In this document: positions 4,572-18,921 of the stretch, piece by piece
How positions within the stretch are numbered: position 1 is the first letter of the stretch
Layout of the letters: the number at the start of each line of letters is the position of its first letter
Origin: Pseudomonadaceae bacterium SI-3
GTDB taxonomy: Bacteria > Pseudomonadota > Gammaproteobacteria > Pseudomonadales > Pseudomonadaceae
Assembly (NCBI GenBank): GCA_004010935.1
Contig: CP026511.1
Span: 930,001 to 994,000 of the forward strand
DNA length: 64,000 nt
Reading direction: 5' to 3'
The notes under the pieces: generated by a model
Databases searched by the model: none
Seen by the model: the letters and a program-made list of their open reading frames with translations, nothing else
What the model was told of the DNA's origin: nothing
Program-made: the position numbers and the translations under genes

Positions 4572-4852
4572 TCGATAGGGCTCGTATCGCAGCGGGCTAG
4601 GCGCCCGCGTTTCGCGGCGTCGACACACGTCCCGGCCGCCTGCTGCCAACTGTAGAGATTGCGGATCCTGCCGTCTGACATCAGTGCTCCCCGGCCATCA
4701 GAATTGCGGCTGTCGCGTAATGGCCTGCTGGCTACCGGTCATCATCCGAAAGAAACAGGTCGAATGATTTGAGGAACTGTCATGGCGATCGCGCCCCAAA
4801 ACTGTACGAACCGCATTTTGCGGGCCGTGAAAGCAGAACGGAGGAGATACTG
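4572..4852 (+). other. Intergenic region, no gene seen
   Basis: The 281 bases between tsdA and the next gene have no convincing reading frame. A GC-rich segment around 4605-4625 could form a weak hairpin after tsdA. A good ribosome binding site (GGAGGAG near 4840) precedes the ATG at 4853, which is why that start is preferred over an in-frame ATG at 4769 lacking one. Confidence 0.5.
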
Positions 4853-5623
4853 ATGACACTCAAGCAATCGGCATCCCTATCGGCAGCAATACTCGCCGCA
4901 ACCCTGGCCGTTGGCCTGCCCGGGACTGCCGTCGCGCAGCAGACCGGCCAGACCAATCAGGCAGGCCAACAGGCCGGAACGGGGGTGCGGTCCATCTCCG
5001 TAGGCCATAACGTCGTGGACGCAGTGGACGATGTGCGCGAGACCAGTGCCGACTTCATTGGTGCGCTCCTTGGCGCCGAGGAAGGCCTGGGACTTGGCAA
5101 TTGGGAGCAGCAGGAACAGCGGCTCAACCAGATCGAGGAACAGTTGGAGCAGATGGAAGCCGTGCTGGACGAAAAGGCCGAAGCCACGGACCAGGAGTGG
5201 ATCGACTGGATGGGCGGTCCAGATTACAGCGTGACCGTGACCAAGCAGATCAAGAACCTTGGCGCCCATCTGGAACAGGTCTCCAATATTCTCGCCGAGA
5301 ATTGGCAGACCAAGGGCATCCAGGTACTGATCGGCAGCAACGTTCTAGAGCAATTACGCGACCTGCGCGAAACGACCGGCGATCTGCTCAACGCGATGGA
5401 GAATGCGGGCAGCGACTACGGTTGGACGACGGATCCGAACCGGTTCAAGCAATCGCGGGAGCGGCTGACGAAGATGTCCAACGACATCGACCAACTGTTG
5501 GTCATGTCGGACGCTGACTGGCGCGCCTATCTAGAATCTGACCGATTCCATATCGTCATCCACGACAACGTGGCGACCCTCGCCGACGTTCTTAAGAACA
5601 TGACCAAGCCGAACCAGGGCTGA
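4853..5623 (+). CDS. Secreted protein with two internal repeats, function unknown
   Basis: The 256-residue product has a Sec signal peptide ending in TAVAQQ (about residue 29). The mature part holds two related units of about 95 residues (about 48-147 and 158-249). Each opens with a G-(H/S)-N-V motif followed by an (L/V)RET-(S/T)-x-D stretch, and each contains a D-x-x-W pattern before the end. The region at 85-112 is strongly helical and glutamate-rich. I do not recognise a named family. It has its own ribosome binding site and is probably transcribed separately from tsdA. A helical periplasmic binding or scaffold protein is a guess. Confidence 0.7.
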   Translation: MTLKQSASLSAAILAATLAVGLPGTAVAQQTGQTNQAGQQAGTGVRSISVGHNVVDAVDDVRETSADFIGALLGAEEGLGLGNWEQQEQRLNQIEEQLEQMEAVLDEKAEATDQEWIDWMGGPDYSVTVTKQIKNLGAHLEQVSNILAENWQTKGIQVLIGSNVLEQLRDLRETTGDLLNAMENAGSDYGWTTDPNRFKQSRERLTKMSNDIDQLLVMSDADWRAYLESDRFHIVIHDNVATLADVLKNMTKPNQG

Positions 5624-5893
5624 CCGGCCCTACCACCCGCCATGCAAGCGGCGGCTTGCCAAAAGCCACCGCTTGCCATGCATGACGGAACACACGAACA
5701 GCAGTGCTCGTTAATAGCCGGCTGAGGGCGGTCGCTCTCCTCGAAGGTGGCGGCTCGTTTGTGTTCCGGCAGGTTGAAGTCGATTCGAGCGGGCACGGCG
5801 TTCGCTGAAAACACGTTTTCATTATTGGGAAGGGCGCCATCGGTGCAGTGATAGCTGTTCCATGGAAACGAGTTGTGACTGTTCAGCGGCCTG
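5624..5893. other. Convergent intergenic region
   Basis: A 270-base spacer between two genes that point at each other. I see no convincing coding sequence or strong terminator. Confidence 0.4.
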
Positions 5894-6592
5894 CTAACGC
5901 CCCTCAGATTGAGCTGCGTAGTGATTGTAGAAAAAGCGGTTATAAAACAGGTAGGCCGCACCGCCTGCGCATACCGCTACGATGCTGGACAGCGCCATGG
6001 CACCGTAAAGGGGAAAGGAGAGGGCCGGTAGGTATTCGCCCAAGTTGCGAAGGACAACGCCTTGCAGCGCGACGGCGGAGGAGGGAGCCAGGATCACCCC
6101 ATAGGCCAAGCAGCTAACGTACGTCGAGATGGCCCAGCGAAAGCCAAGCAGGCGGCTAAGGGGGGCGGACCATTGCCGTATGCGCTCGGCAGGCAGTTGC
6201 AACAATTCATGGCAAATAGCCTGACAATCGCTACGCTCTTCTACCAGCTCGGCAATTTCCGCATTTAGTCTGGCACCCAATGCGCTTCCAGCGTGAAAAA
6301 GTCCGTCTTTGCGGCGACGCAGTTGCTGACCTTCAGAGTCGATCTGCTCCAGTCGAGCTCCTATTGCTTCGGTGCGCTCGAGGTTCTCGGAAAATTCGTG
6401 CTCTTCCTCCATATCCAAGAGGATGTCCGATTCATCAGGGACACGTGGGTGTCTGGCGTAAAGCAGTTCGCTGATGAGCCAGCCCAGCCATATGAAGGAA
6501 GTGGCCAGAAGGGTGAAAAGGAAAACCAACCATCCGACGAGCACAATGACTAGGCCAGCAGGATTGCTTTCTTGTTTTTTCTTTCTACTCAT
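5894..6592 (-). CDS. Coiled-coil membrane protein, last gene of the TIR/AAA+ cluster
   Basis: The 232-residue protein has a lysine-rich start, a long hydrophobic stretch at about 13-43, an acidic helical segment at about 57-120 (SDILLDMEEEHEF onward) that could be a coiled coil, and two more hydrophobic segments near 150-172 and 190-218. I do not recognise the family. It lies nine bases after the preceding gene of a seven-gene minus-strand run, so it is likely co-transcribed and may form a membrane complex with the two membrane proteins before it. Confidence 0.7.
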   Translation of the reverse strand: MSRKKKQESNPAGLVIVLVGWLVFLFTLLATSFIWLGWLISELLYARHPRVPDESDILLDMEEEHEFSENLERTEAIGARLEQIDSEGQQLRRRKDGLFHAGSALGARLNAEIAELVEERSDCQAICHELLQLPAERIRQWSAPLSRLLGFRWAISTYVSCLAYGVILAPSSAVALQGVVLRNLGEYLPALSFPLYGAMALSSIVAVCAGGAAYLFYNRFFYNHYAAQSEGR

Positions 6593-6601
6593 AGATGGGC
6601 G

Positions 6602-7195
6602 TTACTCAGGAAACGCGATGTTGGGATCAAACGATGGAGCACGCCCCTTGGTACGGCGGATGACCTGTACGAGCAAGGCCCGGCACTCATCCCGTTTTTG
6701 CTTGTGGCTGAACATCAATTGGTAGGAACCGAAGTCGCCGGACAGATTTAGCCCGTAGCGTCTGCCGCGGTTGCGTCCCTGTCCTATTCGCTGTGTATCG
6801 TTGTCCAGCCGTTGGATATCGTCGATGGCAAGCTGAATGCGATGGGCGTGGTCGAAGAAACGCCGTAGGCTGAGAATGTCATGCAGGCTGTTTTCCAGAT
6901 CGTCAGCGCTAAAACTTAGGGCCGCGGATACCGGGTCAATGCGGATGCCAGCTGACTGGGCCTGCCAGACCCGCCAGCCAAATACGCTGGCCGCAATCAC
7001 GCTGCCGCAGAACCAGATAGCGACCCAGAGTGCTGGTCTGAAATCGCTCAGCAGGAGCAGAACCAGTAACGTACCGATCAGGCACAGGCCGATAAGCATG
7101 GCCAGCCAGCAACCGAAGGTCGTCCGAATAGCATGCCAGATATCCACCACCGTATAGGTTTTGCCATATACGGAACGACGATGCGTACGATTCAT
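6602..7195 (-). CDS. Two-helix membrane protein with cytoplasmic domain, function unknown
   Basis: The ATG at 7195 overlaps the previous stop (ATGA), which decides the start; an upstream in-frame start at 7267 would run deep into its neighbour. The 197-residue protein has two close membrane helices (about 28-50 and 54-75). A soluble remainder carries a helical segment (about 95-135) and a segment with alternating hydrophobic residues (YGLNLSGDFGSYQLMFS). No family was recognised. Its place in the run suggests a membrane subunit. Confidence 0.7.
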   Translation of the reverse strand: MNRTHRRSVYGKTYTVVDIWHAIRTTFGCWLAMLIGLCLIGTLLVLLLLSDFRPALWVAIWFCGSVIAASVFGWRVWQAQSAGIRIDPVSAALSFSADDLENSLHDILSLRRFFDHAHRIQLAIDDIQRLDNDTQRIGQGRNRGRRYGLNLSGDFGSYQLMFSHKQKRDECRALLVQVIRRTKGRAPSFDPNIAFPE

Positions 7196-7578
7196 GACAG
7201 TAAACCCCACACCAAAGAGACGGCGACTGCCAGGGCAGCGACGGTAGCTGGAAGGTAGAAATGCCATCGGGCAACCGGTATGAATATTTGCTCTGGTAAG
7301 GTTGGTTCTTGCTTCGGTACTGGTGCACTGGCCGGTTTTGGGGCTATCGGGCGCGCGACCGCCATGGCGGGTTCAGTAACAGCCGCGAAGTTGACTGAGA
7401 GATCGTCGTGCTCGTCGTGCTCGTCGTGCTCGTCGTGTTCGTCCGTTTCATCCGAGTCTTCGAGCTTTTCCAGCGCCTGCCGGAAAAGCATTTCTACGTC
7501 GTGCAGCAGATCGACGCCATAGGCATCGATATAGGCATGTGTGTGCCGCAGGCTGGTTTTCAGTAGCTCGCGGCTCAT
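7192..7578 (-). CDS. Tail-anchored protein with acidic/histidine repeat
   Basis: A 128-residue protein overlapping both neighbours by ATGA. The N-terminal 40 residues look helical. They are followed by DSDETDEHDEHDEHDEHDD at about 43-61, then an Ala/Pro-rich linker and a single C-terminal membrane helix (about 104-127). The DEH repeat could bind metal or act as a charged spacer. The layout is that of an adaptor or anchor for a cytoplasmic partner, perhaps the AAA+ ATPase encoded directly upstream (inference). Confidence 0.65.
   Translation of the reverse strand: MSRELLKTSLRHTHAYIDAYGVDLLHDVEMLFRQALEKLEDSDETDEHDEHDEHDEHDDLSVNFAAVTEPAMAVARPIAPKPASAPVPKQEPTLPEQIFIPVARWHFYLPATVAALAVAVSLVWGLLS
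7405..7440 (-). repeat. Four 9-base tandem repeats coding Asp-Glu-His
   Basis: Four copies of GTCGTGCTC (the last with one change) lie head to tail. They are in frame and encode the EHD tract of the tail-anchored protein. Changes in copy number would alter tract length without a frameshift. Confidence 0.85.
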
Positions 7579-8885
7579 CCGGGAATGTCCTCCGGCGTCA
7601 GGGTGCGAAGTTGATCACGGCTGGGGTTATCGATTTGCGACAGCCGATTAGCGTGGGCCTGCATCACCTCCTCGAAGAACGTCCTCATTTCCCGTGCGTT
7701 GCCGTAATGGTCGCCGCGCAATTCCCAGCGGTTCTTTATGGTCTGGCGGCTCTTATGCCAGGCCTCAGCACGAAAGCGCAGTTCGTGTCTGTCGCATAGG
7801 CGACGGAAGACTTGCAGCAAGTCCGCGGGTTCGTAATCGTCGAACTGGATGTAACGGGTAAAGCGCGACTTCAGACCGGGGTTCGAGTCGATGAACGTCT
7901 GCATTTCCTCGGTATATCCCGCCACAATCACGATCAGGTCGTCGCGGTGGTCTTCCATCAGTTTGAGCAGCGTGGCGATTGCTTCGTGCCCGTAATCAGT
8001 CTCGTGGGCGTTCTTGACCAACGCATAGGCTTCGTCGATGAAAAGCACGCCACCGAAGGCGCTTTCTACTACCTCGCGGACAAGCCCGGGCGTCTGGCCA
8101 AGGTACTGCCCGATCATTCCAGAGCGGTCGGTTTCCACCAGATGGCCTTTGCGTAGCAAGCCGATGTCGCGGTAGATGTCGGCTATCAACCGGGCCACCG
8201 TGGTTTTGCCTGTGCCTGGATTGCCTGTGAACACCATATGCATGGAAACCGGCGGCACCGGCAGGCCGTTCTCCTTGCGGTTGAGGATGTAGCGGGCGAA
8301 ATTCACGCTATTGCGCACCTCGCGCTTCACTCCCTCCAGGCCAACTAGACTCTCCAGCTCTTTCAGGGCTTCGCCGGGCGCAATCGGTGAGCGGCTGGAA
8401 CCTGGCTCGGTTTCAAGCTCAAAGTGCTTTCGAATCGGTTCCAGCACCTGCTCCGCCCTATCCATGTCCTGGGGCGTCTTGTCACCATCCCAGGCCACAG
8501 CTGCCTGGATCAGATCGTCCAAGCAGCTGTAAGCCTCCTCACAGAACCCCGGCTGCAAGCGCTCGGCGATCAGCAAAAAAGCCGGCAACACCTGCGGGTC
8601 GAATGGGAGTTGCTTGTCGCGCAGTGCGCCATCAGCCAAATTTAGCTCCTTAACGCTGAGATCGTTTGCCAAGATGGTGTTGATGAACTCTTGGTGCCGC
8701 GAGCGTATCTGCCGGTCGCCGGTCATCACGTAGTCGAGCATAGGAAACAGCCAACCCAGCGTTAGCCGCACCAGTGAATGCGGCAGTTTGGGGTTGGCCC
8801 GAGTGAATCGCTCGTCCAGCCCGCCGGTTATCAGCAGATTGAGCAGGTGCATCAGGGCGATTTTGGCTTGGTCTAACTGCATCAC
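7575..8885 (-). CDS. CbbX/SpoVK-type AAA+ ATPase
   Basis: A 436-residue protein. Residues 1-170 are a helical region without a recognised family. The C-terminal half is an AAA+ module with Walker A GNPGTGKTT (221-229), Walker B VLFIDEAY (280-287), a VIVAGY sensor-1 strand and a SRFTRYIQF arginine-finger region. This is the CbbX/SpoVK branch, which remodels protein complexes using ATP. It abuts the TIR gene with no spacer and overlaps the next gene by ATGA. A likely role is to control or remodel the effectors encoded beside it. Confidence 0.85.
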   Translation of the reverse strand: MMQLDQAKIALMHLLNLLITGGLDERFTRANPKLPHSLVRLTLGWLFPMLDYVMTGDRQIRSRHQEFINTILANDLSVKELNLADGALRDKQLPFDPQVLPAFLLIAERLQPGFCEEAYSCLDDLIQAAVAWDGDKTPQDMDRAEQVLEPIRKHFELETEPGSSRSPIAPGEALKELESLVGLEGVKREVRNSVNFARYILNRKENGLPVPPVSMHMVFTGNPGTGKTTVARLIADIYRDIGLLRKGHLVETDRSGMIGQYLGQTPGLVREVVESAFGGVLFIDEAYALVKNAHETDYGHEAIATLLKLMEDHRDDLIVIVAGYTEEMQTFIDSNPGLKSRFTRYIQFDDYEPADLLQVFRRLCDRHELRFRAEAWHKSRQTIKNRWELRGDHYGNAREMRTFFEEVMQAHANRLSQIDNPSRDQLRTLTPEDIPG

Positions 8886-9914
8886 TTAACAATCCGTTTC
8901 ACTTCGACCGCGCTGATAAGTATCAGTAAGCAAATCTACGAGTTCTTGCTTTTTAGACATCTCTATTCTGTCTTCGCCTAAGGCTGCACCCGCTATAGCT
9001 TTCAAGTGCTGAATGGGTAGTGAGGCGAAGTCTAATTCTAGTTTCAATCTATTGGACAATGTTTGCCTCATCTTTGAGGGGGAGCGCCTGTCAACCTTGA
9101 TATCTAGCTGATCGCAAAGGCTCCCTAATTTCCAAGAAGCTTCATTGATATAACATTCCAAGATCTTCTGGCTTACTGTCGCGTCGGAGTCTTCGTGCTG
9201 CTCGTTAGTAAGCCACTGCTCAATGCGATTTAAGATGGTCTCTTTGCCTCCCTCTTGGTTAAGGTTCAGCATCCGGCATAGTTCTCGAAGAAAACTATCA
9301 TGGTAATCATCGAGCAGGACCCTAGGGTTTCCATCCCAATGCATTTTTATACTGCTTTTAAGTGCTTGCATTTGTTGGGGTGGTGATAGGCAGTTTTTGA
9401 ATGTGTCATGGAGTAATTCTAGGTCTTGAGAATCCATTTCACCATGTTGGTCAAGAAAATAGTTAAGTAACTGGTCGCGTTTTTCGTGATAGATACGTTC
9501 TATTAGGCGAGAAAAGTTCGCCTCAAAGTCTTTGTGGTTAAGCTCGATTGCATTTTGCTCAGCAATAGCGCTTATGTCGGATGGCAGGTTTGCTGGAAAA
9601 CCAGTCACGCCATTGGCGAAGATGGGAATGATTCTCCGGATTTTCTGAGATTTGTAGAGTTCAAGCGCCATAGCAATTTCTTGGCGCACCCAGTCATCCT
9701 TAGAGATACAGCGGTCTAACGATCCGGGAGTAACAATAAGTATAAAGTTGGGTGAGTTTCTTAGGTTATCCTTGATGTTATCTGCGAAACTTCCGAAACT
9801 CAAAGACTCGCTATCGAAAAAACACCTGAATTTTTTTTCTTCAAGTGCTTTGCATATTAGTCTCGCCGTGGTGGCGCCACCTTCTCGGCGATAGCTGATA
9901 AAAATGTCGTTCAC
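8886..9914 (-). CDS. TIR-domain protein with C-terminal SAP-like repeats
   Basis: The 342-residue protein opens with a TIR fold (FISYRREGG at 5-13). A DDWVRQE segment at 73-79 makes Glu79 the candidate NAD-cleaving glutamate. The C-terminal half holds three segments resembling SAP motifs (about 208-235, 262-292 and 300-332), each with a Leu-rich helix, a turn and a second helix such as KKQELVDLL. SAP motifs usually bind nucleic acid, so target sensing through DNA is possible (inference). Bacterial TIR proteins commonly deplete NAD or make nucleotide signals in antiviral defence. The gene is clearly richer in A+T than the dsb genes, a sign of transfer. Confidence 0.82.
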   Translation of the reverse strand: MNDIFISYRREGGATTARLICKALEEKKFRCFFDSESLSFGSFADNIKDNLRNSPNFILIVTPGSLDRCISKDDWVRQEIAMALELYKSQKIRRIIPIFANGVTGFPANLPSDISAIAEQNAIELNHKDFEANFSRLIERIYHEKRDQLLNYFLDQHGEMDSQDLELLHDTFKNCLSPPQQMQALKSSIKMHWDGNPRVLLDDYHDSFLRELCRMLNLNQEGGKETILNRIEQWLTNEQHEDSDATVSQKILECYINEASWKLGSLCDQLDIKVDRRSPSKMRQTLSNRLKLELDFASLPIQHLKAIAGAALGEDRIEMSKKQELVDLLTDTYQRGRSETDC

Positions 9915-9925
9915 TGTTTAGTCCC

Positions 9926-11584
9926 TTAAGTGGGTAGCTCAAACTTACGTTGGCGGTGTAGCAGTAGCCATTCGCCGTTCTCGGCAAGTGCCTCCTTACC
10001 TATGAACTTCAGAATGCTTTTGGCTGATTCGGTGTTTCCTGCTTCAATATGGTGATCTAGCACGATGATCGCGCGGCTGAACAAGTTTCCCATTTTTTGA
10101 TATCTGTTGGCATCTTCCTCATAGGCCATCAGGTTTGTATGGTTTCGGCAGATTGCGGCCAGAACGAAAAGGATGGCGGCAAGTAATGTTAGCCAGGGCA
10201 GGAGTTGAGATGGGAGGCTGGCAATTGATTTAAGCAGGAGTAGCAGAGTGGTAGTGCCGCCTGCAAAGAACAGGAAGCGGCTATATAGCATCCACTTTAT
10301 AACTTTCTGTTGTTTGCTAGCTGCGCTGCTTCCTCCGCTCAAAAAGAACTTTTTCTGATCCTCCAGCCAATGCGATTTTATCCATGGGAAATCGCAGTCC
10401 GTTAAGGCGGTATTCCCAGTTTTGGTAATATTTTGAATAGCATAACGAATCCAGCCTAGCTCATCGTTTTGACTACTCAGGTAATATTTGCTTGCGCACT
10501 CGTCTATGCCAGCAGCCTGCCAACAGGCTTGTACGCGTAATCCCTCCGCTAGTGCGCGCCAGTCCATGTATTGAGCTTCGCTGTTACGTGTGCCGCTGAA
10601 AAATGCTCGGTAGCTGGCGAAGGCAATAAGGCCAAAACCAATATGTAAGGTCAGCCAGTACCATTGCATGTCTGGTCCCAGATGCAATTGCTGGAAAAAA
10701 ATAGACAGAAAAACAAGCAGACTGAGCAGCCACAGGGTGGTACTGCGTTGCTTTTGCTTGCTACGGGACAGAGCATCGGCAATGGCGAACGTCTGTAAAC
10801 TGGATTCGATGACAGAAGGGTAATTTGCTTCACCAGTCAACCACTGACGGCTTTCGACTATCTCGTGAGGTGCTGCTTCCTGAATCTTTATTGCTGCCTG
10901 GTTGAAATCTTCTATGGACTGGAATATTTCACTCCAGCACTTGCGTGTGCCGATAGCGGCATCAGTAATTGCGGGGGCCCAGCTGCTGGCATCTTCGGCC
11001 GTATAGGCCAGTGGATTCTTTTTTCTATTGCAGCGCAGATGCCGAACTTGGCAGGTTTCCGGCTGTGCCAACGGATTGTCTTCGTTCTCGATGCCTTCAC
11101 GACAAAGCCTTACAACATCGGCGGTTCCACCGGGTAAGGAATTTTCCGTACTACCGTCCCACAATGCATAGAGACACTGTGCTTGCTGCGCTAGGCATAT
11201 TCCCAGAGCCTGGTAACTAGCATCACGTGATGGATCGCAAGCGAGATATCTCGGCATGGGAGCTACCTGTACTTCGGCAGCCTTGCTCAGAAGTAGTCGA
11301 AATTTCGCAAGTGTTTCGGGTGTAGAGAAATCCTGTTCGTACTCCGCTTGGGGCATGGGCAATACGGCCATCAGCTCGATGCTATGCTCCAGTGCTATCT
11401 CAGCGATTAGCCAATCGGCACCTTCGGCAAGGCCGTTCAATAATTGAAAGCGTGTGCCAGGGTATTGCTTGCGTAGTGTTGTGAACTCTATATGCAGCGC
11501 CTCGCGAATCGAGGCGATTTCTGTATCCAATAAATCGCGATGGCCGCTGGTGGCTAGCACGACAGGAATTGGGCCGAATGTCAT
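9926..11584 (-). CDS. SLOG-like nucleotide-sensor protein with four membrane helices
   Basis: The 552-residue protein starts with a Rossmann-like segment: SGHRD at 13-17, NGLAEGAD at 50-57 and a VLP-P-Y-DF pattern at 74-86. This resembles SLOG/LOG-type domains that bind or process nucleotide ligands. The C-terminal half has four membrane helices (about 281-300, 307-328, 431-452, 461-480) with a cytoplasmic loop and tail, reminiscent of SLATT-type membrane effectors. The combination suggests a ligand-gated membrane effector or sensor. Its start is overlapped by the end of the gene transcribed before it. The family names are my reading of motifs and need profile searches. Confidence 0.7.
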   Translation of the reverse strand: MTFGPIPVVLATSGHRDLLDTEIASIREALHIEFTTLRKQYPGTRFQLLNGLAEGADWLIAEIALEHSIELMAVLPMPQAEYEQDFSTPETLAKFRLLLSKAAEVQVAPMPRYLACDPSRDASYQALGICLAQQAQCLYALWDGSTENSLPGGTADVVRLCREGIENEDNPLAQPETCQVRHLRCNRKKNPLAYTAEDASSWAPAITDAAIGTRKCWSEIFQSIEDFNQAAIKIQEAAPHEIVESRQWLTGEANYPSVIESSLQTFAIADALSRSKQKQRSTTLWLLSLLVFLSIFFQQLHLGPDMQWYWLTLHIGFGLIAFASYRAFFSGTRNSEAQYMDWRALAEGLRVQACWQAAGIDECASKYYLSSQNDELGWIRYAIQNITKTGNTALTDCDFPWIKSHWLEDQKKFFLSGGSSAASKQQKVIKWMLYSRFLFFAGGTTTLLLLLKSIASLPSQLLPWLTLLAAILFVLAAICRNHTNLMAYEEDANRYQKMGNLFSRAIIVLDHHIEAGNTESAKSILKFIGKEALAENGEWLLLHRQRKFELPT

Positions 11585-12249
11585 TGATCACTCCAGGCAA
11601 GGTCAATCAGAGATGATGTCAGGTTTTCCGGATTGCGCTTGTACTTCGCCCGTTGCATCAGGCAAATGCACTCGGACAGTGGCTCCCCAGCGCTGCCTAA
11701 TGGCATCTTTGGATTGAACTTGGCTAGGGCCTCGGCAAAGGTGTGCAGAAGGATTTCTCGGTCATCAGCGTAGTGTTCTTCTGCCAGGGCCAAAGCCTCC
11801 AGCAATGCCAATTCGATGAACAGTGAATCAAGCCAACCGACCTCATGGCGGTAGGCAAATATCCAGCGAGTCTTGTTGATCAGGATGGGTGCCCAGAGGT
11901 TGGATTCCCGGGCACCAACCAAGCAACTGCTGACGATGACCCCTTCGATCTTATCGCCGTAAAGCGCAACCTTCTCTAAAAGCGTGCTGGCCCGGCCATT
12001 GGCAATGCTGGTCTCGTTGCCGTGGGCACCTATATAAAGAATCTGGCGTTTTTCATGGGTATGAATCAGGTCCTGCGAGAGGGCGACCTCGAAGCCCCTT
12101 GTGTCGTAAAACGTCGAATAGTAAATGTTGAAATAATCATGCAGCCGCTCAATCCCTTGGAAAAAAGGGAGAGCCGACGCTCGGGTAGGGTTTATGTTTG
12201 GGTTCCACCAAGGGGATTCCAAAAGCAGTAGAGCGAAACAGTCAGACAT
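11581..12249 (-). CDS. Caspase/CHAT-like protease candidate, first gene of the run
   Basis: A 222-residue soluble protein. ILYIGAHGNE has His76-Gly77, and GVIVSSCLVGA has Cys109. This beta-strand-HG then beta-strand-SC-x-x-G pattern is the hallmark of the caspase/CHAT (clan CD) fold. The whole protein is barely larger than the catalytic core, with no recruitment domain, so activation may come from its partners. It is the first of seven tightly packed minus-strand genes, next to SLOG-like, TIR and AAA+ proteins. That setting is typical of bacterial conflict systems with suicidal proteases. Without a structure comparison the protease call is tentative. Confidence 0.6.
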   Translation of the reverse strand: MSDCFALLLLESPWWNPNINPTRASALPFFQGIERLHDYFNIYYSTFYDTRGFEVALSQDLIHTHEKRQILYIGAHGNETSIANGRASTLLEKVALYGDKIEGVIVSSCLVGARESNLWAPILINKTRWIFAYRHEVGWLDSLFIELALLEALALAEEHYADDREILLHTFAEALAKFNPKMPLGSAGEPLSECICLMQRAKYKRNPENLTSSLIDLAWSDQ

Positions 12250-12924
12250 AGCAATCCCAAGCGTTAAGGTTTAGGACTCGCTTGCTAGCAAATAGCTTTT
12301 TAGTGGTCATGTCTTGCTGATTCCATTAGCGCCCGTCCGTGAAAGATCGCTTTTTGTATGGTGTTCACGTCGCCGAAGGTAGCGGGTCGATTTCTCTCTG
12401 CGAGCCCGGCGGGCCCATCGATTGCGTACCCCCATGGGGTAAAAGCAACATTGCTCGTCTCTTTGCCGATGCTTTTCGCCCAAATCATGTGGGCTTTATC
12501 GCCCGGGTAAGCCAAAAGTTTACAGGGCGGTAGCGTCAAAACTGTCTATCTGTTGCCAGCGTAATGACCCTAATACGACTATCCATATCTGAGCTGAACC
12601 TCCCACTACCTAGGCGCACTGGTCCGTTGTGATGGAGTGGCGAGCCTGCAATGCCAGAGCCGGCTTTTACACGCCAACGATCAACCCACCGGTGGACGCG
12701 ATGTAGAACGTGCCTTGTTAGCATTAGCCTGCATCGCCTTGTGAGAGTAGGCATAGAGCAACCGTGCGGGTCAGCAAGAACGAGGCTACGTTTTCGCTAC
12801 ACCGAAGTGCTCTTCGCCAACGAGCGCAGCCAGGGAAAATAGCTGATCCGATCAATGGTTTGTGACTCAAGTCGTGCTTTCACAATGATGGCGTTATGAT
12901 GCTATCTGATCACTCAGGACTCGC
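12250..12924. other. Divergent intergenic region between the two halves of the cluster
   Basis: This 675-base gap separates the minus-strand run from the CHASE2 gene and probably carries both promoters. A 79-codon minus-strand frame (12300-12539) is open but resembles nothing I know, so I do not call it. The sequence AGGA seven bases before 12925 is a fair ribosome binding site for the CHASE2 gene. Confidence 0.4.
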
Positions 12925-14514
12925 ATGGGCCGGATGGCTGCATGCTTCGGATGGACAGGGATGCCGAACGGGAATCACCAAGAGCCACGCCCTGGCGTCG
13001 CGTCAGGGCAAATGAAAGGCATCGAAGACTACTTCAAGCAGCTTGCACATCTGGTACTTATGTGTAGGCGGCCACGCCAGTTGCTGCATCGACTAGGCGC
13101 AGGCTTTGGGCGGCGCTGGCAGTTACTGCTCCGCTACTTCGCAAGCTTTCGGGATGACCGTTTAAAGAAAGTGCCGGCCTATCTGGTCGCCTGGGCAACT
13201 TTCTCTCGCATGGTTGTGATTTCCATTGCGCTCATCATTCCCGCATGGCTGCTGGAGGTTGTCGATCCGTTCGGTCTTTCGGGCGCGGTGGAAAGACATT
13301 CGCAACAGATCGTGCAGAAGATAGCTGCGCCTTTCTACCCAGCAACTGCACAGTCGCGGATCGCAATAGTACTCATCGACGAAGCCGCCTTGGCCGTACG
13401 TGGCGAGAGCTGGCCGCCCCGCTATCTGTATTACGAGGAGGTCGTTCGACGGATCGCCAAACAACGCCCATCTGCTATCTTTCTCGACGTTCTAGTTGAG
13501 GACCGCCGCTCTTATGATGCGTCCCTCCCGCTTGCACAAAAGGCGCTAGAGGAGACCCTGAAGGAAACGGGGGTTCCGCTATACCTAGCGGTCCTAGATG
13601 GCGGTGAGCGCAGCCTATTTGCAAAAGTCCCTGGAACTCACCTGGCAATGGCCGGTTGGAGTGGATATGGCGCTGACTATCCGCTTCTCGTGGACCGCAG
13701 CCATCGCTTTGGCGCGACGCCGCCAGAAAGTGACAACCGATGCGGCACCGATAGCCTGCCGACCGCGGCCTTCGCTCTGTATCGCCAACTCTGCGAGCGT
13801 GGCGAGCAGAAGGGCTGTGGTGACGCCTCGACGGAAGGTGACGTCGGCGCATTCTGTGCGCCGATGGTTGTTCAATGGGGATACAACGTTGCGCCGCAGA
13901 TCCGTGCTCGGGACCTGCTCTCGGCGAGTCAATGCGCGCCATCTGAGGAAAGTGCTGGAACCCGACTCTTCGACTCCGCACGGATCCTGTGGTCAAGCTT
14001 ACTTGCCAGCTTCGATAAAGAGTCCGAAGTCCAAGGCCGTCAGCCATGCCCCTATACATTGACGGTGCGCGAAGAGGACCTGAGTAGCGCTCGGGTTCGC
14101 GGACTATTGAAAGACCGGGTGGTCTTGGTCGGAACGAGCCTTGCCGGCATCCATGACCTCGTAGCAAGCCCCGTCCATGGGCAATTGCCAGGCGTCTATC
14201 TGCATGCCATGGCGCTGGATAACTTGCTGACCTGGGACGATCACTATTTCGCTCGGGCTGAAGGCACCCCCACGCTTCTAGTCCTCGGGCTGCTCTTGGC
14301 CTGGGTGTCTGCGGCTCTCATTCGTGCCAACCCAGCACGCTTGGATTTCCTGTTGCACGCCTTCGCTGCGTTGCTGGTGCTCGGCGTTAGTGCTTTTTTC
14401 TACCTGGTGTTGCATCGCCCTCCGCTTGACTGGCTTGGGCTTCTGCTCATTTTCGAACTTGCCCGGAGGATATTGGAATCCTCTGCCAATCGGCGACAGC
14501 CGTCCGTAAATTAA
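12925..14514 (+). CDS. CHASE2-domain membrane sensor
   Basis: The 529-residue protein has a cytoplasmic N-terminus and a first membrane helix (about 95-112). A large extracytoplasmic region follows with CHASE2 landmarks: IAIVLIDEAAL with a W-P-R-x-x-(Y)x-x-(V) segment, FLDVLVED, and a later VVLVGTSLAGIHDL and GVYLHAMALDNLL. About three C-terminal helices (450-515) complete the layout. Unlike many CHASE2 proteins it has no attached kinase or cyclase, so it must signal through partners. An alternative start is 13012. It is the first of three overlapping or closely spaced plus-strand genes. Confidence 0.8.
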   Translation: MGRMAACFGWTGMPNGNHQEPRPGVASGQMKGIEDYFKQLAHLVLMCRRPRQLLHRLGAGFGRRWQLLLRYFASFRDDRLKKVPAYLVAWATFSRMVVISIALIIPAWLLEVVDPFGLSGAVERHSQQIVQKIAAPFYPATAQSRIAIVLIDEAALAVRGESWPPRYLYYEEVVRRIAKQRPSAIFLDVLVEDRRSYDASLPLAQKALEETLKETGVPLYLAVLDGGERSLFAKVPGTHLAMAGWSGYGADYPLLVDRSHRFGATPPESDNRCGTDSLPTAAFALYRQLCERGEQKGCGDASTEGDVGAFCAPMVVQWGYNVAPQIRARDLLSASQCAPSEESAGTRLFDSARILWSSLLASFDKESEVQGRQPCPYTLTVREEDLSSARVRGLLKDRVVLVGTSLAGIHDLVASPVHGQLPGVYLHAMALDNLLTWDDHYFARAEGTPTLLVLGLLLAWVSAALIRANPARLDFLLHAFAALLVLGVSAFFYLVLHRPPLDWLGLLLIFELARRILESSANRRQPSVN

Positions 14515-14525
14515 GGAAGAACTCC

Positions 14526-14882
14526 ATGATCCGATCTGTCATTTGTCTCGCTTTCGCCGCTGGCTTGCCCCTGAGCTGCCTTGCCGATTCGCAGGTTACT
14601 GAAGCAAACGTCGACCCCGTTAGTGTGTACGAGCGTCAAGCAGACGGGCTGTACGTTCGAACTGGCAAGCGTTCGGTCGAGGAGTTGTCGTTACCATTGG
14701 CGCTGCTCGAGCAAAGCCCTAGGGGCTACCTGAAGGTTTCACTCAGTGGGCAGGAGCTTTGGCTCGACAGCATGGATGTCGAAGTATTTCCGCCGCCGAG
14801 TATCGGAAACAGTGGCTGTGTGCCGACGCTTCAGGACTCAGTAGCGGCCGTCTCGCGCGGAGCCGGGGAGGGGTGCCCATGA
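14526..14882 (+). CDS. Small secreted protein, possible SH3-like fold
   Basis: A 118-residue protein with a ribosome binding site (AAGGAAG) and a signal peptide ending near residue 21 (SCLAD). The body alternates short strands (LYVRTGKR, YLKVSLSGQELWLDSMDVEVF) as in bacterial SH3-like domains, but the match is weak. The stop overlaps the next start by ATGA, so it is translationally coupled to the M48 protease and may be its periplasmic partner. Confidence 0.6.
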   Translation: MIRSVICLAFAAGLPLSCLADSQVTEANVDPVSVYERQADGLYVRTGKRSVEELSLPLALLEQSPRGYLKVSLSGQELWLDSMDVEVFPPPSIGNSGCVPTLQDSVAAVSRGAGEGCP

Positions 14883-16345
14883 AGCGGCTTGTTTGTGCTG
14901 CGCTGTTTCTGGCTGTAATGGGTGGCTGCGCGCAGGTTAGCGTGCCGAAATTGCCTATAGTCATGGGAGCCGATGACCCAACCATTACGCTATTCGACTC
15001 GCGTTTCCCTGGTGCGGCAGCTAACAAGGAACAGGTGAGTCTGCAGACCACCGATAGCTTTTTGCTGCAGCACCGTGCATTAGGCACTGCCGAAAATCTG
15101 CGTATCGACGAGTACACAAACTCAATCCTCAAGAAACTCCAGCGAACGTTACCGGGAACACCCGCTGCGGGTCGGATATACATTACGCCAAATACCGAGT
15201 TCAGCGCAGCGAGCTATGAGGACGGCGGGATTTACATCCCTTACAAGGTGCTAGGTGCGCTCGAGAGCGAAGACGAGCTAGCGGCGTTGATCGCACACGA
15301 GTACGCGCATGTTCTATTGAACCATCACAAGACTAATTGGCTTGATACTGCCTCTGGTTTGCTCTACAGCGCCGGTAAGCTGTACATCGGTCAGCGACAG
15401 GCTGATGTGGTAGAGAGCGATCTGCTGCGTATGCTTGCCATCAACGAGGCTGGGCTTGGAATGTCTCAGATCGGTCTTATTCCTGGTTTGACACGTTCTC
15501 AGGAGGACGAGGCTGATCGATTGGGCGCCGATCTCGTAATTCGGGCAGGGTACTCTTATATAGGTGCGCATAAATTGTTGAGCCGCATCAGGACTTGGGA
15601 TGATATGACCAAGGCCCAACGCGAGGCACGTAAGAAAGACTATGTCCAGCTGTTTAAGCCTAGCGACAATAGCTTACTAGCTAAGGCCATTGACGGTCAG
15701 GTGGACAAACTCGAACATCAGGCCGAGAAGCTTATCGGGAAGTGGAGCCGGCACCATGATTCGGGAGGAGCTCGAATGGATGGTCTGCGCAGCTATATCA
15801 AGCAGCATTACGCTGAAGTGGAGCGGCCGTCCCTTCGTGTTGACGCTTATAAAAAGGTGATGGCCGCCTCTGAGGCTCGTCGTTTCTTCGAAGGATTAGA
15901 CGAAGCTCATGTCTCCTCGCTTGCCCTAATGAAACAGGACCGTAAAGACGCTTTGTCCCGTGCACGTCAGGCTGGGCAAACCCCTGCATCCAATGCAGCT
16001 TTTGCGCGTCACGTACTGATCAATGCGTTGAGTGTGAACGGCCTCGGACGCGATGCGGTCGTTGAGCTTGAAAGCATCGTTTCTGATGAGCGGGCGCTCT
16101 ACAGCGACAACTTGCTCATGGTGGAGGTGTTACGTGAGCGTGAGCCGGAGAAGGCGCTGACACTCGCACAGCGCAGCTACGATCGCTATGGTGAGCCGGT
16201 TGAACTCCTGCCTGACCTCATCACGCTGAACAAGCAGTTAAACCGGAACTGGATCGTGATGAAGCTGTATGGCGTTTGCGCCGCGAGGGCGATGGCCGCT
16301 ACCGATAACGCTCTGTTAGACAGCTGCAACAAAGCCAAAGGGTGA
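14879..16345 (+). CDS. M48-family metalloprotease lipoprotein
   Basis: The ATG at 14879 overlaps the previous stop. A lipobox (VMGGC, Cys17) marks a lipoprotein. The zinc motif HEYAH lies at 140-144, with a downstream EDEADRLG segment supplying the third ligand, as in BepA/LoiP-like M48 peptidases. The remaining 250 residues are helical and probably form TPR-like repeats. The 488-residue length fits BepA-type proteins. Envelope quality control is the family role. Here, coupling to CHASE2 suggests signal-dependent proteolysis (inference). Confidence 0.85.
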   Translation: MKRLVCAALFLAVMGGCAQVSVPKLPIVMGADDPTITLFDSRFPGAAANKEQVSLQTTDSFLLQHRALGTAENLRIDEYTNSILKKLQRTLPGTPAAGRIYITPNTEFSAASYEDGGIYIPYKVLGALESEDELAALIAHEYAHVLLNHHKTNWLDTASGLLYSAGKLYIGQRQADVVESDLLRMLAINEAGLGMSQIGLIPGLTRSQEDEADRLGADLVIRAGYSYIGAHKLLSRIRTWDDMTKAQREARKKDYVQLFKPSDNSLLAKAIDGQVDKLEHQAEKLIGKWSRHHDSGGARMDGLRSYIKQHYAEVERPSLRVDAYKKVMAASEARRFFEGLDEAHVSSLALMKQDRKDALSRARQAGQTPASNAAFARHVLINALSVNGLGRDAVVELESIVSDERALYSDNLLMVEVLREREPEKALTLAQRSYDRYGEPVELLPDLITLNKQLNRNWIVMKLYGVCAARAMAATDNALLDSCNKAKG

Positions 16346-17306: not shown

Positions 17307-18921
17307 GGCCGATTCTGTTGAAAAAGTAGGTTTAGCGGCAGCAAGGCGGTCGGATGTACCTGCTGTCGAAATGGCTGCAAGCCACTTCAAGTTGCCTTCC
17401 GGCGTTTCACTGAGCGTCCTTGCTCCGGTTTAAGGGTTAATTTGAGGGTTTCTGCTCGTAGCAGGCGTACCTATCCCGTCAGCGGTGGCCCTTGAGGCAA
17501 AAGCTTGGCCATGCGGCGCAGGTTCTGCACCATCGCAGCTAAGGTGAATTCGTCAGTGGCACCCGTTAGGCCACGCAGTCGTAAACGGTCGAGTTTCATG
17601 ATCCGTTTGAGGTGGGCGAAAAGCATTTCCACCTTCTTTCGTTCGCAGCGAGAGACGAGGTATTCCGGTGTCTTGGCGATGCGTCGAGCCACGTCGCGGG
17701 AAGACTCATGGATGCTGCGGACGATCTTCCGATTCGGCGTGTTGGGGCAGCATTTCGCTTTCAACGAGCAGGTGGCGCAGTCGGTTTGGCTGGAGCGGTA
17801 AATGATGGTGTTGGCCTTGGTTACCCGCGATCTTTGCTGAGTGAAGGCACGCCATTCACTGCGTAGCGGTTTGCCGGCTGGGCAGCGATATTCATTGGCT
17901 TCCTGATTCCAGTGGAAGTCGTTACTGGAGAGGCTGTCGTCCTTGCGCTCGGTCTTGTCCCACACCGGCACATGCGGCTCGATGTCCTTTTCTTCTACCA
18001 TCCAGGCCAGCATCGGGGCGGTGCCATAAGCGGTATCGCCGATAAGGCGTTCCGGCGTGAGATCGAAATGCGCTTCGACACGCTCGACCATCGTCCTGGT
18101 CGAGTCGACTTCGGCGGTACGGTGCGCCGGGGTAGCTTCCACGTCCATGATCACACCGTGCTCAGTGTCGATCAGGTAATTCGTGGAGTAGGCAAAAAAG
18201 GCCGGGCCACCTGGCGCTGCTGTCCAACGGGACTGAGGGTCTGTGAGCGAAATTTTCTTGGGAAGAGCCTCAGCCAGCGCCTCTTCATCAAGGGCTTCGA
18301 GGTACTCACGCACTGCTCGGCTGCTGAGCTTTGGGTCGTTCCAATCGACCTGATCTCCCGCCACCCCACGTTGCCGGCTGGCATCCGCCTTAATGATGCT
18401 GGCGTCGACGGCGAAACCTTCACCCTTGACTAGGCCGGCTGCCATGCAGCGCCGCAGCACCTCATTGAATAACCAGCGGAATAGATCGCTGTCACGAAAA
18501 CGCCCATGGCGATTCTTCGAGAAGGTCGAGTGATTGGGTACTTCGTCTTCCAGACCCAGCCGGCAGAACCAGCGATAGGCCAGGTTCAGGTGCACCTCTT
18601 CGCACAATCGCCGCTCGGAACGAATGCCATAGCAGTAGCCGACGACCAGCATGCGCACCATCAACTCCGGGTCAATCGAGGGGCGCCCGATGGGGCTATA
18701 GAAATCCGCCAGGTAGGCACGCAGATCACTGAGATCCAGGCACTGGTCGATGCTTCGCAGGAGATGTTGGGCCGGGACGTGATCTTCCAGATTGAACGAG
18801 TAGAACAGGCGCTGCTGTCCTCCCGGTAACTGTCCCATCATGCTGTTCGCCTCCACGCCCGCTGACAAAGCAATTTTGCCAACGGCATGGGGAGGTCGCT
18901 ACTTTTTCAACAGAATCGGCC
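17307..18921 (-). mobile_element. IS1182-family insertion sequence, copy 1
   Basis: A 1615-base element bounded by perfect 23-base inverted repeats (17307-17329 and 18899-18921) that start GGCCGATTCTGTTG. It encodes one transposase. The outermost GGCC may instead be a 4-base target duplication, since the flanks reconstitute a CTTTTGGCCGATTnCTGCC motif when one GGCC is kept. A second copy of the same length is at 60510-62124. Confidence 0.9.
17471..18841 (-). CDS. IS1182-family transposase
   Basis: The ATG at 18841 has a GGAGG eight bases upstream, better than a TTG at 18868. The 456-residue protein has the DUF772 N-terminal helix-rich domain (RSIDQCLDLSDLR region) and a DDE-type catalytic domain, including DAYGxAP-like text (GDTAYGTAPML) and a cysteine cluster (CATCSLKAKCC). 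It differs from the second copy by a scatter of substitutions, so the two copies are not a recent duplication of each other. Confidence 0.9.
   Translation of the reverse strand: MMGQLPGGQQRLFYSFNLEDHVPAQHLLRSIDQCLDLSDLRAYLADFYSPIGRPSIDPELMVRMLVVGYCYGIRSERRLCEEVHLNLAYRWFCRLGLEDEVPNHSTFSKNRHGRFRDSDLFRWLFNEVLRRCMAAGLVKGEGFAVDASIIKADASRQRGVAGDQVDWNDPKLSSRAVREYLEALDEEALAEALPKKISLTDPQSRWTAAPGGPAFFAYSTNYLIDTEHGVIMDVEATPAHRTAEVDSTRTMVERVEAHFDLTPERLIGDTAYGTAPMLAWMVEEKDIEPHVPVWDKTERKDDSLSSNDFHWNQEANEYRCPAGKPLRSEWRAFTQQRSRVTKANTIIYRSSQTDCATCSLKAKCCPNTPNRKIVRSIHESSRDVARRIAKTPEYLVSRCERKKVEMLFAHLKRIMKLDRLRLRGLTGATDEFTLAAMVQNLRRMAKLLPQGPPLTG

Follow-up and report, generated by a model that had tools for sequence, protein, structure and literature searches.

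In type I Thoeris, the effector ThsA is a SIR2-SLOG protein. According to the available part of PMC12847820, ThsA is activated by the cyclic ADP-ribose 3'cADPR, and in type IV Thoeris a caspase-like protease is activated by N7-cADPR, the product of a TIR protein. A further group comprises the nucleotide-centred conflict systems of the TIR-SLATT and SLOG-SLATT type predicted by the Aravind group (PMC9503650, PMC7159879); in the accessible parts of these papers, SLATT is predicted to be a membrane effector regulated by an ADP-ribose signal and attention is drawn to TIR-SLATT neighbours in phages (PMC9503650), with related SLATT/TIR statements in PMC7159879. The subject of the present study is a seven-gene operon of Pseudomonadaceae bacterium SI-3, a strain with a complete 4.84-Mb chromosome, found at 5894-12249 on the minus strand of the window, by which is meant the whole 64,000-nucleotide stretch analysed (positions 930,001 to 994,000 of contig CP026511.1; GC content 58.1%). 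Like the TIR-SLATT and SLOG-SLATT systems, as far as these are covered in the accessible text, the operon links TIR to SLATT, has a predicted nucleotide-regulated pore, and is mobile and polymorphic, but it also contains a caspase-fold protein, three accessory membrane proteins and a CbbX-type AAA+ protein that bears its own N-domain. It would resemble the ThsA system in that an effector with a SLOG domain reads the signal from TIR, although the output consists of SLATT membrane segments rather than SIR2, and it differs from type IV Thoeris in having an extra SLOG-SLATT and AAA+ core. On balance the operon is probably a mobile, multi-gene abortive-infection system, directed against phages or plasmids, in which a TIR-to-SLOG second messenger would act on a SLATT pore and a caspase; we lean towards this interpretation with moderate confidence. 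The unity and mobility of the operon, the folds and active-site positions of its proteins, the swapping of its TIR slot and the linkage of TIR to SLOG-SLATT were all obtained by computation.

The genes are transcribed in the order p7, p6, p5, p4, p3, p2, p1. All ten open reading frames (ORFs) of the initial annotation, these seven and a divergent trio (p8, p9 and p10), were recovered at their coordinates, as was the tight packing of the seven minus-strand genes: 4-base ATGA overlaps join p7/p6, p4/p3 and p3/p2, and the remaining gaps are 0 (p5/p4), 9 (p2/p1) and 11 bases (p6/p5), with p2 taken to start from an internal ATG at 7195. The window proteins were searched against PADLOC-DB 2.0.0 (2023), NCBIfam (2026) and Pfam. 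In PADLOC-DB, p1, p2, p3, p7, p8, p9 and p10 were without a match at E <= 0.1, and neither PADLOC nor NCBIfam gave a system-level match at cut-off for the operon, in keeping with the initial view that the combination is not a named system. The seven-gene combination was not found described in the open-access literature; an earlier mention in a 2015 SLATT/SLOG paper from the Aravind group is possible.

For comparison, all ten window proteins were aligned by tblastn with 81 loci, many of them on stretches shorter than 20 kb, made up of the best 80 of 314 confirmed p6-relative loci and one caspase-only locus. Stutzerimonas, to which the nearest named p6 relatives belong, is probably also the genus of the source genome. 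The seven-gene order recurs in three loci, L011 (S. kunmingensis), L012 and L013 (S. stutzeri), the L012 sequence being a metagenome-assembled genome (MAG) labelled Planctomycetaceae, a label that is probably wrong. The proteins of the L011 operon are 80-99% identical to those of the window, and L014 (P. fluvialis) keeps the same order up to a contig end inside p3. A more distant locus in a Methylococcaceae MAG, L015, has the caspase (66%) and the SLOG-SLATT protein (40%) together with a different TIR protein and a match to the N-domain of p4 only. At the DNA level (blastn), window positions 5887-12541 align with L011 at 95% identity and 5894-12552 with L012 at 91%, the flanks of both blocks differ from the window and nothing adjoining aligns. 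The blocks thus extend into the region upstream of p7 (12250-12552), which moves together with the operon and is likely to be its promoter region; a consensus scan upstream of the operon found no sigma-70-like site, and scans of the locus found no promoters or terminators. Of 21 gene comparisons, 20 give a ratio of nonsynonymous to synonymous substitution rates (dN/dS) below 0.5 and the other (p5 against L013) was too diverged to compute, so that the operon genes are under purifying selection wherever the ratio is computable. The seven genes form a single operon and move together. With gene order kept in three loci and dN/dS so low, their association is more than chance, and the description of them as an unusual conflict-type operon stands. 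Its occurrence is patchy, with p6 in three of 56 genomes of the source genus (two of the genomes, G389 and G405, appear to be those of L011 and L013 again).

The gene p5 (8886-9914, minus strand; 342 aa) encodes a SARM1-like TIR domain (about residues 1-140) and a SAP-like C-terminal region. The TIR half of its initial TIR-SAP assignment is supported by Pfam (TIR_2, 9.6e-16), but both SAP matches fall below cut-off (SAP_new25 at 5.7e-4, SAP at 0.0036). The best match in the PDB is the TIR domain of SARM1 (9.9e-19), an animal NADase that outranks any other solved TIR. Glu79 of p5 aligns with the Glu of the SARM1 motif DWVHKE, presumably the catalytic residue, and p5 is a probable NAD-cleaving TIR enzyme, as predicted from these alignments. 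It occupies the variable slot of the operon: p5 is only 33% identical to its L013 counterpart, compared with 87% for p7, 76% for p6 and 86% for p4, and L015 has a tandem-TIR protein in its place. It is also the most AT-rich gene (43.6% GC, against 58.1% for the window), and its counterparts in L011, L013 and L014 have 43.5%, 41.1% and 47.0% GC. Swapping of the TIR slot amid conserved neighbours fits a fast-evolving sensor or enzyme, as expected in an arms race.

Next to it, p6 (9926-11584, minus strand; 552 aa) combines an N-terminal SLOG domain with a SLATT-type transmembrane region, with hydrophobic segments near 279-304, 433-457 and 454-486. The SLOG call holds at the level of the family, in which 19 of 30 members match YAcAr (a SLOG family) and ten match DNA_processg_A at E <= 0.01, but not for the window protein itself, which misses YAcAr (E 0.17); its SLOG subfamily is nearest YAcAr/YspA. 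SLATT-type segments were found among the same 30 as DUF4231 (12 members), SLATT_1 (four) and SLATT_3 (four), the window p6 matching DUF4231 below cut-off (0.0021), and a relative with 69% identity is named 'SMODS and SLOG-associating 2TM...' in UniRef. From these domain assignments, p6 is likely to be a signal-gated membrane pore.

The partners of SLOG-SLATT proteins bear on what that signal may be. Profiles for TIR, DUF4062 and CAP12-TIR were run on the 80 SLOG-SLATT loci, the TIR profile being made in-house (10/10 self-chosen ORFs were TIR_2 in a Pfam check). A TIR-type NADase gene is present on 48 of the 80 loci and lies within 1 kb in 38. The rate per ORF falls with distance, from 25/137 under 0.5 kb, through 10/141, 6/198 and 4/260, to 1/216 at 7-11 kb. 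Under a stricter choice of ORFs, an NADase lies within 1 kb at 36 of 80 loci, compared with a mean of 12.5 and a maximum of 23 in within-locus shuffles that kept the ORFs of each locus and took no account of relatedness (L044 appears identical to L063); none of 2000 shuffles reached 36, and without the five caspase loci the values are 31/75 observed against 11.5 shuffled. Among the upstream neighbours, Pfam identified three TIR_2 and two DUF4062 proteins in 34 (39 less five caspase genes), and 10 TIR_2 and three DUF4062 in 40 further neighbours, a biased sample of 25 downstream genes (31 minus six) and 15 picked by hand. The partners include TIR-TPR, TIR-NACHT/WD40, SIR2-TIR, DUF4062-NACHT and TIR-STING proteins. 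Individual cases are a TIR-STING protein (L018, 1458-4372), a SIR2-TIR ORF (L087, 5027-11695) and, beside another SLOG-SLATT gene, an ion channel-TrkA-RyR protein (L047, 8130-11905), 2 kb from which lies a TIR gene.

This range of partners predicts that SLOG-SLATT proteins, linked as they are to TIR, DUF4062 and CAP12-TIR, read NAD-derived signals, and p6 and its relatives probably read the product of the TIR enzyme. The principle of TIR-SLATT signalling has been published before; what the present counts add is how broad the link to NADases is. The same neighbourhoods could be read differently, with the TIR enzyme as the killer by NAD+ depletion and the SLOG-SLATT, AAA+ and caspase proteins as sensors, licensers or regulators (the caspase might, for example, free an inhibited partner), so that no TIR-to-SLOG messenger would be involved. 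The closeness of p5 to SARM1, an NAD+-depleting enzyme, speaks for this, as does DUF4062, a TIR-like NADase with anti-phage activity that, as a partner of other SLOG-SLATT proteins, depletes NAD+ directly (both from the available part of PMC13174449). However, the gene-level coupling of SLOG-SLATT to three NADase classes is easier to reconcile with a common nucleotide than with a common sensor, and it would be strange for a soluble NADase to be regulated by a large membrane protein of the SLOG kind. Killing by the TIR enzyme alone is therefore a possible alternative, though one we consider rather unlikely.

The first gene of the operon, p7 (11581-12249, minus strand; 222 aa), had been called caspase/CHAT-like. 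Sequence families give no help with this: p7 matches no Pfam family at E <= 1, including the Peptidase_C14 and CHAT families, NCBIfam gives no support for the window protein, all 31 aligned relatives are without a relevant NCBIfam match, and comparison of p7 and p6 with solved structures by sequence gave chance-level matches only. The AlphaFold model and its structural matches do support the call, since they place p7 in the caspase-haemoglobinase fold (CHAT/clan CD-like). His76 and Cys109 are invariant in 31 p7 sequences and in the model follow strands 68-74 and 101-107, respectively, which corresponds to a putative His-Cys dyad after strands 3 and 4. When p7 was aligned by hhalign to C14 domains (10 domains used of 14 matched places), HG paired with HG and Cys with Cys, at a probability of 17%. 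It is accordingly described as a putative caspase-fold protease, a designation taken from the model. Unlike the SAVED-CHAT protein of type III CRISPR (PDB 8tl0), it is a bare protease domain with no sensor domain and no CRISPR context.

A TIR protein and a caspase-like protein in one operon is the arrangement described for type IV Thoeris (PMC12847820, available part), so the seven genes could be a type IV Thoeris system plus extra genes. The matches to named Thoeris models are, in PADLOC, ThsB at 5.5e-8, for a model without a stated cut-off, and, in NCBIfam, ThcB4, a type III model, at 39.8 bits against the 220-bit cut-off; the 31 relatives of p7 again lack a relevant NCBIfam match, and the portions of PMC12847820 at hand describe no counterpart of the conserved p6 and p4 in Thoeris. 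Membership in Thoeris thus appears quite improbable, and as the named Thoeris models were not reached, the operon is not filed there, though it may work alike. If the second-messenger interpretation is right, the unnamed operon would join TIR-to-pore and TIR-to-caspase logic, each known or predicted separately, with a dedicated AAA+ machine.

The p7 family is rare, being detected in 9/398 genomes of the bacterial family, 2/369 of a class sample and 1/398 of a phylum sample. Six of the nine family-level matches (24-32% identity) lie away from matches to the other nine window proteins, and at least five of these six distant relatives have a WYL-like gene beside them. A second type of cassette was seen in which a divergent caspase-like protein is accompanied by a WYL regulator and a tandem AAA+ protein (IetA-like by PADLOC), at L012 4125-8617, L149 2348-6836 and L137 7656-11789; in L012 it lies directly upstream of the seven-gene operon, and the WYL domain there was confirmed by Pfam.

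The AAA+ protein p4 (7575-8885, minus strand) consists of a CbbX/SpoVK-type ATPase (about 172-434) and a system-specific N-domain (about 1-172). It shares AAA and lid domains with the CbbX/SpoVK/EccA family (Pfam AAA 1.2e-20, AAA_lid_6 1e-15; CbbX in the PDB, 1.1e-56). The NCBIfam matches to SpoVK (5.2e-80) and CbbX (4e-68) are below equivalog cut-offs, the two scores being 268.2 bits where 422.95 are needed and 229.8 bits where 459.25 are needed. Unlike these proteins, p4 misses every equivalog cut-off and has an N-domain confined to the system of this operon, limited to 25 protein clusters of 54-93% identity. Co-occurrence was judged from longest contigs of equal size: by this measure, among p6 clusters, 13 of the closest 35 and none of the next 85 are accompanied by a p7 cluster, and p7 or p6 accompanies 11 of the 25 p4 N-domain clusters. 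Accordingly, p7 and the p4 N-domain seem to track p6, and since the pairing is confined to the closest p6 clusters, the caspase and AAA+ proteins appear to have been added in one clade of a SLOG-SLATT family that is itself wider.

The last three genes, all on the minus strand, encode small membrane proteins. The 128-aa p3 (7192-7578) is tail-anchored, with an acidic linker and a single hydrophobic segment at the C-terminus (105-128), and is conserved in L011, L012 and L013, its start being visible in L014. The 197-aa p2 (6602-7195), the start codon of which overlaps the p3 stop, has two hydrophobic segments within 21-76, and the 232-aa p1 (5894-6592) has one at each terminus; their dN/dS values against L013 are 0.107 and 0.087, respectively.

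In the proposed abortive-infection mechanism, every biochemical step of which we infer, the C-terminal region of p5, or a partner, would recognise the invader, and the p5 TIR domain would cleave NAD+ to yield a signal of the ADP-ribose type. Once this signal was bound by the SLOG domain of p6, the SLATT segments might open or assemble and the inner membrane leak. Activated by the same signal or by p6, p7 could cut host or operon proteins, either as a second effector or as the licence for the pore, and p4, with p3, p2 and p1, would assemble, dock or reset the complex. It could be speculated further that the operon is an inflammasome-like switch, in which one TIR nucleotide gates both the SLOG-SLATT pore and the caspase, the caspase cuts p1-p3 to license or amplify the pore, and the CbbX-type AAA+ protein loads or resets it. 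This extension is doubtful, but if true, a single mobile cassette of seven genes would bring together NAD+ cleavage of the SARM1 type, proteolysis by a caspase and the formation of a pore. Several observations weigh against the second-messenger scheme as a whole. The caspase was found in only five of the 80 SLOG-SLATT loci, and 32 of the 80 have no TIR-type gene on the fetched stretch, so that either there must be other triggers or some contigs end too early. The AAA+ position of L015 holds a 137-aa protein that matches the N-domain only, which means that the ATPase may be dispensable or that the L015 copy has decayed. PADLOC matches are weak and at domain level only (p4 and p5, with ShosA at 0.053 for p6), and phage-borne versions of p6 or p7 like those of the window were not found in phage records or IMG/VR.

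The searches behind the last point were made with p6 and p7. No match to p6 was found among phage records, its two loci in IMG/VR cover the C-terminal part only (residues 310-551 and 269-549), and p7 had no match in IMG/VR. On plasmids, p7 had three matches of 27-32% identity, beside which the other nine window proteins were without a match at E <= 1e-3, and p6 matches spanned 27-29% of the query, in the SLOG part only. A phage or plasmid as the vehicle of the operon was rejected on these searches. The near absence from IMG/VR and phage records would also suit a death switch that responds to stress or plasmids or acts at the level of the population (kin or biofilm), with the same biochemistry and another trigger than phage; the accessory membrane proteins could then sense the state of the envelope. 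Patchy, block-wise mobility and slot swapping are, however, typical of anti-invader systems, and a switch of this kind seems unlikely.

Upstream of the operon and divergent from it, across a common gap of 675 bp, are three plus-strand genes outside the system: p8 (12925-14514), a CHASE2 protein without an output domain visible to Pfam, p9 (14526-14882), a secreted protein, and p10 (about 14879 to 16345), an M48 peptidase. As with the TIR and AAA+ domains, the CHASE2 and M48 assignments of the initial annotation held in Pfam (7.9e-24 and 3.8e-12). Its proposal that the trio belongs to the same system, with envelope sensing by CHASE2 and M48 coupled to the effectors, fared otherwise. A model in which the trio senses the envelope and controls the seven-gene arm has the divergent arrangement and shared gap in its favour, but none of the 81 loci matches CHASE2, p9 or M48 at E <= 1e-4, so that the refuting condition set in the initial annotation, rare co-occurrence of the two arms, came true. 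The conserved operon block ends at 12552, short of the trio. A close p8 is present in two of 56 genus genomes, the source genome and G375; the latter lacks p6 but carries all three trio genes in colinear order, at 73/70/75% identity. CHASE2-M48 pairs also occur elsewhere without the operon: among 29 further genus CHASE2 loci, an M48 relative was seen on the fetched stretch in 13 and not in the other 16. The 13 comprise the locus of the trio, one weaker locus and every one of the 11 loci whose CHASE2 identity is 33-39%. In G389, the operon is on contig C10 and a distant CHASE2-M48 pair on contig C17 (L099). Together, these results indicate that the trio is an independent module and a chance neighbour of the operon; a two-arm envelope-sensor system is ruled out as a conserved system, and control of the operon by the trio is hardly credible. 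A striking two-arm locus can thus be two unrelated neighbours.

The order of CHASE2 followed by an M48 lipoprotein-type peptidase recurs in the genus (L095-L106, L109, L134, L138), and the pair is possibly an envelope module of its own; no description of a CHASE2 and M48 pairing was found in the open-access literature. On the other side of the operon, the left-flank gene at 4769-5623 was used to look for an empty insertion site in the 56 genus genomes, and none was found. The gene is present in four of these genomes, three times as a close or own copy and once at 40%, and in the two fetched relatives the alignment is limited to the gene itself. Its product looks secreted, and the copy in G399 has an internal TAG within the match. 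Finally, transposase-like ORFs were noticed by eye at 17471-18868 of the window, near the trio, and at 15743-16723 of L012, directly after p1.

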